A DNA stretch of 37,044 nucleotides from a virus. Below the pieces are notes generated by a model. It did no database searches. It worked only from the letters and a program-made list of their open reading frames with translations, and had not been told where the DNA came from. Positions 35,611 through 37,044 of the stretch are shown in pieces. The translations under genes and the position numbers were made by a program. Position 1 is the stretch's first letter, and each line of letters opens with the position of its first letter. The stretch lies in the IMG/VR virus record IMGVR_UViG_3300042502_001009, positions 1 to 37,044 of that record. One strand, written 5' to 3'.

Positions 35611-35622
35611 AAAGAGGACAGG

Positions 35623-37044
35623 ATGGACTTTAATTTATTTAACGGCGATTGTTTAGACGTTTTAAAAACATTACTCGATAACAGCGTTGATTCAATTGTT
35701 ACTGACCCACCGTATGGGTTAAGCAATCAATCGCAAGATGATATTATCAAGTGCTTAACGGCTTGGTTAGCAGATGAAGCCTACATACATGCTGGTAGTG
35801 GTTTTATGGGTAAGAAGTGGGATAGCTTTGTACCAAGCCCGACCGTTTGGAAAGAGTGCCTGCGTGTGTTGAAGCATGGGGGGCATATTGCATGTTTTGC
35901 TGGGAGCAGAACGCAAGATTTAATGGGTATGAGCTTACGGCTAGCAGGCTTTGAAATGCGTGATGTTGTTATGTGGGTGTACGGGTGTTTAAGTGAAGAT
36001 ACTGAAATACTAACAAGCAATGGATGGAGGCGTTACCATAAAACCATTGAACAAGATAGCGTATTATGTTATAATAAAGATAGTGATAGTTTTGAGTTCC
36101 ATCAACCTACAAAGTCTTTTAATTATGAAAACAAACATACCGCCTATAGTATTAAATCAGATTTTACAGACCAAATCGTCAGCAGAAACCATCGTGTGCT
36201 TGTTGAACGAGGCGGAAGCCTTGAATTTATTAGTGCCGAGACACTTGAACGCAAAGAGAACATACCCTTTTTGGAAAGCCTGCACTGTTTGCCAAACTCC
36301 GTATATGACACATACGAAGGAACAAGCAATAAGGAACAAAACTTGCTCAAAGAAGTGCCTAGGGGAAATGATATCAAAAGAGAAAATAGGGAAGAAAACA
36401 CAGAACAAAAAAGAATGTATTGTTTGCAAGACAACGTTTTACCCGACCTTTCAATCGGTCAACAAACCGAGAGTTGTTTGTTCTCGTCAATGCAACGGTG
36501 TATTGAGGGGGGAGGAATGGAAAGCTCATGCACACAAAGGGCGTGCGTCTTGGAAGCAGGAGAGCGAAATAGCCTTAAAACTGCGGATGACTGGGTCAAC
36601 GAATCCAAGCTGGAAGGGCGGGGTAACTTACCACAACCGCAAGGGGCAATATGTAACACAAAAAATAAAGTATGTGAGGTGTCCGATAGAATACATAGCA
36701 ATGGCACGCAAAGATGGGTATGTAATGGAGCATCGACTATTGGTTGCAATGAAGATACAGAGACCGCTAACAAGAACAGAAGCAGTTCATCATATCAACC
36801 ACGATGCAACAGACAACAGATTGCAGAACTTGATGCTATTCAGGACGAATGCGGAACACAAACAATACGAACATGGAAAGCCTATAGTTCCACTTTGGCA
36901 ACCATAACACCGATAGAATACAAAGGTAACGTGTGGTGTGTAACTGTTCCTACTGGTGCATTTGTAGCTAGAAGAAATGGAAAGATATTTATAACAGGCA
37001 ATAGTGGCTTCCCCAAAGGGCTTGATATTGCCAAGGGTATTGAT
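35623..37044 (+). CDS. DNA methyltransferase (N4/N6-adenine or cytosine type), interrupted by an intein, 3'-partial
   Basis: ATG 35623 opens a frame of 474 codons that continues past the window edge. The extein begins MDFNLFNGDCLDVLKTLLDN and contains motif IV VTDPPYG (DPPY, catalytic, residues about 25-31), GKKWDSFVPSPTVWKECLRV, LKHGGHIACFAGSRT and FEMRDVVMWVYG. The continuation after the intein, SGFPKGLDIAKGID, is the well-known phage-MTase sequence W-x-YGSGFPKSxxIxKxID, which shows exactly where the intein sits. Methyltransferases of this group modify the phage genome against host restriction. Beta-type order (DPPY early) suggests N6-A or N4-C. Starts 12 bases after the Mu-F-like gene. Confidence 0.85.
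   Translation, partial: MDFNLFNGDCLDVLKTLLDNSVDSIVTDPPYGLSNQSQDDIIKCLTAWLADEAYIHAGSGFMGKKWDSFVPSPTVWKECLRVLKHGGHIACFAGSRTQDLMGMSLRLAGFEMRDVVMWVYGCLSEDTEILTSNGWRRYHKTIEQDSVLCYNKDSDSFEFHQPTKSFNYENKHTAYSIKSDFTDQIVSRNHRVLVERGGSLEFISAETLERKENIPFLESLHCLPNSVYDTYEGTSNKEQNLLKEVPRGNDIKRENREENTEQKRMYCLQDNVLPDLSIGQQTESCLFSSMQRCIEGGGMESSCTQRACVLEAGERNSLKTADDWVNESKLEGRGNLPQPQGAICNTKNKVCEVSDRIHSNGTQRWVCNGASTIGCNEDTETANKNRSSSSYQPRCNRQQIAELDAIQDECGTQTIRTWKAYSSTLATITPIEYKGNVWCVTVPTGAFVARRNGKIFITGNSGFPKGLDIAKGID
35986..37002 (+). mobile_element. Intein in the methyltransferase, 339 codons, Hint domain with out-of-frame HNH
   Basis: The splice junctions are YG|C at 35986 and GN|S at 37002/37003. N-terminal block A: CLSEDTEILTSNGW. 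Block B: IVSRNHRVLVERGG (His in the SRNH position). C-terminal blocks F/G: VWCVTVPTGAFVARRNGKIF then ITGN, with Ser as the +1 extein residue. The penultimate His is replaced by Gly. Hint-N occupies residues about 1-96 (35986-36273) and Hint-C 307-339 (36904-37002). The 210 residues between, in the intein frame, are not a known domain, because the DNA there codes HNH in the +1 frame. The intein frame has no stop anywhere, so a spliceable precursor can be made. Confidence 0.85.
36125..36907 (+). CDS. HNH homing endonuclease encoded in the +1 frame inside the intein
   Basis: Frame 2 (methyltransferase is frame 1) is open 36020-36907. The ATG at 36125 (MKTNIPPIVLNQILQTKSSA) or 36020 may start it; neither has a strong ribosome-binding site (GGATGGAGG at 36022-36030 is the best nearby). 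The product has two Cys4 zinc ribbons (WKACTVCQTPY...CSKKC; KECIVCKTTF...CSRQC), GSTNPSWKGG, then HNH core GYVMEHRLLVAMKI, AVHHINHDATDNRLQNLMLF and AEHKQYEHG. It ends exactly at the start of Hint-C. This is a complete, well-conserved homing endonuclease. Confidence 0.85.
   Translation: MKTNIPPIVLNQILQTKSSAETIVCLLNEAEALNLLVPRHLNAKRTYPFWKACTVCQTPYMTHTKEQAIRNKTCSKKCLGEMISKEKIGKKTQNKKECIVCKTTFYPTFQSVNKPRVVCSRQCNGVLRGEEWKAHAHKGRASWKQESEIALKLRMTGSTNPSWKGGVTYHNRKGQYVTQKIKYVRCPIEYIAMARKDGYVMEHRLLVAMKIQRPLTRTEAVHHINHDATDNRLQNLMLFRTNAEHKQYEHGKPIVPLWQP

Follow-up and report, generated by a model that had tools for sequence, protein, structure and literature searches.

Can a single stretch of DNA encode both a protein-splicing intein and, in a different reading frame, a homing endonuclease? 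This question is raised by the viral record IMGVR_UViG_3300042502_001009 from IMG/VR, analysed here over its full 37,044 bases (the window). The record stops within a DNA methylase gene, upstream of which lie terminase and Mu F-like head genes. An earlier note, made from the letters of the window, had proposed that this last gene contains an intein whose HNH endonuclease is encoded out of frame. The methylase ORF extends stop-to-stop over 35611-37044 and its frame (frame 1) remains open across the whole insert, which comprises 1,017 bases (35986-37002; 339 residues) and separates the Gly and Ser of the motif WVYG|SGFPK. An intein-free relative (L006) aligns across the joined flanks with 88.7% DNA identity and represents the empty site. 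The features of the locus are collected in Table 1.

Table 1 Features of the interrupted methylase gene, the intein and the gene nested within it.
Feature	Position	Strand	Remarks
N6/N4 DNA methylase; extein in which the intein is inserted	35623..37044	+	Runs past the record end; Pfam N6_N4_Mtase E 1.3e-9; PHROG DNA methyltransferase E 2.5e-26
Insertion site	35983..37005	+	From the final Gly codon of WVYG, 5' of the intein, to the SGFPK Ser codon that follows it
Hint-N splicing half, frame 1	35986..36279	+	Cys1 at 35986, block B His69; AF2 pLDDT ~95
Overlap loop, frame 1	36280..36885	+	Mostly predicted disordered, AF2 pLDDT ~43 over most; no stop in any of 69 elements
Hint-C splicing half, frame 1	36886..37002	+	Ends TGN before Ser+1; AF2 pLDDT 94-98
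Nested HNH gene, frame 2 (+1), 260 aa	36125..36907	+	Candidate ATG 36125, TAA 36905-36907; HNH_3 in 34/35 members, matches taken at E up to 0.1
C4 zinc ribbon 1, HNH protein, frame 2	36281..36358	+	Four invariant Cys
C4 zinc ribbon 2, HNH protein, frame 2	36416..36493	+	Four invariant Cys
HNH nuclease motif E...VHH...N...N..HK..E, frame 2	36779..36871	+	Invariant columns; Pfam HNH_3 E 1.4e-5
TTGAAC-17-TATAAT, promoter-like and with a TG extension, within the part coding for Hint-N	36047..36075	+	Upstream of ATG 36125; lead only

Frame 2 was found to be open from 36014 to 36904, ending at the TAA, and the protein it encodes possesses eight invariant cysteines in two C4 sets together with the HNH motif. 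The product of the nested gene scored 25.1 bits against HNH_3, for which the cut-off is 24.8. Since neither its sequence nor its predicted fold gave a significant match in the PDB, its assignment to the HNH class is based on HNH_3 and the motif. Thus, the HNH protein and the Hint halves do occupy different frames, as the earlier note had claimed, with frame 1 open throughout. The note was also correct that frame 3 is closed: the aligned HNH stretch of the nested gene contains 20 stops in frame 3 and none in frame 1. It had placed both Hint halves in the right frame, and its borders at 36273 and 36904 were refined to those given in Table 1.

Elements were gathered from IMG/VR, GTDB genomes and phages, yielding 74 distinct inteins with both Hint halves. 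An HNH protein was carried by 69 of these, always at +1, so that the related methylase inteins with the same offset, which the earlier note had suggested looking for, do exist. Homologues with an in-frame HNH, which according to that note would have spoken against its proposal, were looked for and none was present among the 74 inteins of the family. The HNH proteins are at most 83% identical to one another (68 compared) and hence are not copies of one sequence. The arrangement occurs in dozens of viruses that are not related to one another. Over the 14,505 overlapped codons of the 69 elements, stops numbered 0 in the intein frame, 1 in the HNH frame and 804 in the third frame. Two familiar designs were rejected on this basis. 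A conventional bifunctional intein would carry its endonuclease in the frame of the splicing blocks, whereas the HNH is at +1 in 69/69; and a split intein with a free-standing endonuclease between its halves does not fit two Hint halves in one open frame with 0 stops.

The openness of frame 1 was assessed by synonymous shuffling of the HNH codons. In 44 elements 407 intein-frame stops were expected and none was observed, while the third frame behaved as expected (516 vs 464.5). For the window sequence alone, with the HNH protein and its codons held fixed, 11.0 frame-1 stops were expected and 0 of 300 shuffles were stop-free. The estimate of 4e-5 offered in the earlier note was therefore right in kind and too generous to chance in size. 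The equivalent frame of free-standing HNH relatives contained 16 (L114), 15 (L156) and 10 (L169) stops, which shows that an open intein frame is not a property of the HNH sequence as such; this control set was limited to these three, the HNH proteins of L131-L166 having been excluded because they too are nested in methylases.

Codon-level patterns followed the same borders. Within the overlap, pairwise substitutions peaked at the third codon position of the HNH; in Hint-N and Hint-C they peaked at the third codon position of the intein. Furthermore, codon diversity at conserved intein residues was near its maximum (~1.0) at either end of the intein (codons 1-16 and 307-339), fell below this over most of the interval and recovered at the HNH stop. 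Residue identity in the frame-1 overlap was 0.263, against 0.242 expected from HNH conservation alone. The overlap thus does not encode two structured proteins, since conservation of its frame-1 residues follows almost entirely from that of the HNH: one frame specifies a nuclease, and the other a loop that needs mainly to stay open. Taken together, these results support selection of the DNA for openness in two frames, that of the intein (frame 1) and that of the nested HNH (frame 2), as the note had proposed.

We consider it probable that the insert in this phage DNA methylase is a mobile intein, with its homing endonuclease encoded by a separate +1 gene nested in the DNA of the intein loop. 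The HNH frame would then be translated separately, most likely from ATG 36125, with the message supplied either by the methylase mRNA or by a short transcript from the promoter-like sequence in Hint-N. The position of this candidate start is occupied by ATG in 32 of the 69 elements and by ACG in 14; an alternative, TTG 36203, is present in most of 43 elements. Neither occurs in all, and no universal frame-2 start codon was found across the elements. TAT is nonetheless over-represented at residue 47 and yields the frame-2 ATG when the next base is G (odds ratio 3.2, p 0.0017); Shine-Dalgarno pairing is also stronger before that ATG (mean -4.47 vs -2.49). Over the family, the promoter score was 8.73 vs 6.68 (sd 0.22) under codon resampling. 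These start, Shine-Dalgarno and promoter statistics ignore shared ancestry; many G+C-rich members lack the start and Shine-Dalgarno signals, with a promoter-like motif that is weak or absent, and ATG 36125 in the window itself is without a Shine-Dalgarno sequence. For these reasons we regard expression of the HNH from its own start, as a nested gene, as likely, and the promoter-like sequence as a candidate promoter to be treated as a lead.

Hint-N codons 17-30 (36034-36075) are unusually fixed in the family, despite lying upstream of the HNH gene, and are promoter-like. In many members frame 2 has stops in or past these codons. No conserved RNA fold was detected over 36022-36270 and its homologues.

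Alternatively, the HNH could be produced as a Hint-N/HNH fusion, if ribosomes translating Hint-N undergo a programmed +1 frameshift. Such a route would accommodate the want of a start codon common to every element, and codons 73-77 (GTT GAA CGA GGC GGA) are almost invariant in the family. However, frame-2 coding (LNEAE) would also fix these codons, upstream ATG and Shine-Dalgarno signals are enriched, and no known slippery site was found. We therefore consider frameshifting unlikely.

Once made from its nested gene, the HNH protein would be expected to cut methylase genes lacking the intein at their conserved WVYG|SGFPK, whereupon repair would copy the element in; the protein family, the empty site and a decoupled phylogeny all point to this. 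Extein and HNH identity are weakly correlated (0.27). One pair of elements (L154/L177) shares 85% identity in the extein and 57% in the HNH, while in another (L178/L217) the values are 47% and 83%. Intein similarity does not follow extein similarity, as would be expected of a mobile element, and horizontal spread of the element is indicated. In two mini-inteins (L088, L248), most or all of the HNH has been lost and the host frame kept.

Three further copies are irregular. L245:2501-2932 is an HNH-less mini-intein with a stop at intein-frame codon 7 and is either a decaying copy or a case of stop recoding; L089:2501-3081 contains Hint-N twice in tandem in different frames, as in a rearranged or decaying copy; and L176:2784-3699, on a MAG contig, retains Hint-N and the HNH intact with unrelated sequence in place of Hint-C.

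A role for the HNH protein other than homing, for example in phage competition or as a packaging nuclease, has precedent, since HNH proteins do such jobs in phages (a packaging role is cited in PMC12613952). This role appears improbable for a protein encoded inside an intein, given the decoupled histories of intein and extein and the existence of an empty site.

Translation of frame 1 would give a full methylase precursor, in which the Hint halves are predicted to fold together across the disordered loop of ~200 residues and to splice, releasing intact methylase. AlphaFold modelled residues 1-98 and 301-339 with pLDDT ~95 and most of the stretch between with ~43. The ordered part of the model fell among inteins in Foldseek, and a profile of 41 homologous frame-1 proteins matched a PDB intein, AceL NrdHF (E 1.8e-8). 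C1, H69, C318, T337, G338 and N339 do not vary across these 41 members. Each of the 74 elements starts with Cys and has TGN at its end, SGFPK follows in 72 of them, and the +1 residue is Ser in 73 and Cys in the remaining one. In block B the intein has Ser three residues before His69, and Gly stands in the penultimate position of the intein; neither is the residue most often found there in inteins. Standard annotation misses the domain: Pfam finds no intein domain in the 35986-37002 intein, and Intein_splicing matches only 5 of the 41 members.

With a predicted Hint fold to which both terminal blocks contribute in the frame of the host, together with Cys1, a block B His, a C-terminal Asn and Ser+1, the element agrees with class 1 in fold and key residues. 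Class 3 inteins are characterised by the absence of Cys1 and by a WCT triad, in which Trp follows the block B His while Cys and Thr lie in blocks F and G, respectively. Assignment to that class was rejected, as Cys1 is present and residue 70 is Arg, so that the block B Trp is missing, although C318 and T337 are present. The splicing domain in 35986-37002 thereby combines the Cys1 of class 1 with two residues of the class 3 triad, Cys and Thr, but lacks the Trp, and is possibly derived from class 3.

The predicted fold and the catalytic residues suggest that the intein splices out of the methylase precursor. Were it not to splice, the insert could be a tolerated methylase loop concealing an HNH gene, similar to the ShiLan domain discussed below. 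Disorder in the overlapped loop would suit such an arrangement, as would the existence of close HNH relatives nested directly in methylases without an intein. Conversely, the invariant catalytic residues, the near-uniform Ser+1 and the confidently predicted Hint fold all argue for splicing, and we judge an unspliced loop to be very improbable.

Three remaining explanations can be dismissed as having a negligible chance of being correct. Open frames of ~200 codons can arise randomly in some base compositions, but openness as a by-product of HNH codon usage is refuted by the synonymous-codon shuffle and by free-standing relatives full of stops. A sequencing or assembly error, in which two compensating indels moved an in-frame HNH out of frame (a possibility that the earlier note had wished to see checked), is excluded by 69 distinct elements, drawn from many assemblies, that share the +1 offset, with which the codon-level selection agrees; no point in its support was found. 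Finally, phage group I introns often carry HNH genes, but a self-splicing group I or II intron was rejected because frame 1 is open and encodes the Hint halves, no catalytic RNA core was detected (no Rfam match up to E 5) and the tested 5' part (36022-36270) has no conserved RNA fold.

Intein homing endonucleases are usually viewed as domains folding within the splicing protein. A widespread mobile intein with a nested out-of-frame endonuclease gene differs from the described intein designs that we found. No out-of-frame endonuclease inside an intein was encountered in the literature searched; a preprint on actinobacteriophage inteins of non-canonical architecture (bioRxiv 10.1101/2025.01.02.630785) could contain one. 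Whether the element represents a third intein architecture, in which a self-sufficient endonuclease gene uses Hint-N codons for its promoter and ribosome-binding site and overprints the loop with its coding sequence, we regard as evenly balanced. If so, homing and splicing would be expressed separately and be able to evolve separately. Because the two functions share DNA and not a polypeptide, the nuclease can be made, tuned or lost with the host protein kept in frame. The case is also one of extensive, conserved gene overlap missed by annotation.

The closest precedent is the ShiLan domain of Mycobacterium phage ShiLan gp65 (Gosselin 2023, PMC9957025; Arsenault 2025, PMC11855218), an out-of-frame HNH in a phage methylase. 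The earlier note could point to no description of a nested out-of-frame arrangement, which stands for the inside of an intein and does not stand for a phage methylase, given this domain (PMC11855218). Both are zinc-finger HNH_3 proteins whose out-of-frame genes are hidden in a phage methylase that keeps its own frame open, and both have a patchy, mobile distribution. They differ in that Hint halves surround the HNH here, whereas the ShiLan domain has no intein or intron around it and lies in the third frame relative to its host (PMC11855218). The offset is +1 here and +2 in the relatives of the ShiLan domain, including Mantra, for which we confirmed +2. In addition, the ShiLan domain sits downstream of SGFPK, while the intein that nests an HNH interrupts WVYG|SGFPK. 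Pacc40 gp60 matched neither the Hint nor the HNH profiles. ShiLan gp65 also has an intein (L173), situated at the same site of the mycobacteriophage methylase (WLYG|SGFPK) and with nearly the same Hint-C end, but its endonuclease is a LAGLIDADG protein encoded in frame (PMC9957025). A LAGLIDADG-like intein in another host gene context (L249:2266-3324, ends |CISVW) has a Hint-C end almost identical to that of the methylase inteins. The best match to the splicing domain in both structure and sequence, the AceL NrdHF intein (PDB 6zgq), differs in being class 3, split and without a nested gene.

Some 30 viral methylases in IMG/VR (L131-L166, e.g. L141:2483-3016 and L160:2450-3118) carry an HNH nested at +1 just after SGFPK. 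Family, offset and host gene are the same as here, but Hint halves are absent and the insertion follows SGFPK; they form a large group akin to the ShiLan arrangement, with the HNH in a different frame. In the HNH tree these proteins form near-sister branches to the intein-nested HNHs, on a short alignment with many forks not settled. On one reading of the sequences, a homing gene targeting the SGFPK region may have captured a splicing-only intein, although the direction of change could be either way; if true, the L131-L166 type would record that capture. The series now extends from free-standing HNH through methylase-nested and intein-nested HNH to the HNH-less mini-intein and the in-frame LAGLIDADG intein at the same site, and makes the origin of mobile inteins directly testable.

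Capture of a splicing-only element by a homing gene has been proposed for group I introns. A group I intron with an ORF-encoded homing endonuclease resembles the present element in that the endonuclease is a separate gene inside a splicing element; here, because it is protein and not RNA that is spliced, the nested ORF must also be readable in the frame of the host.
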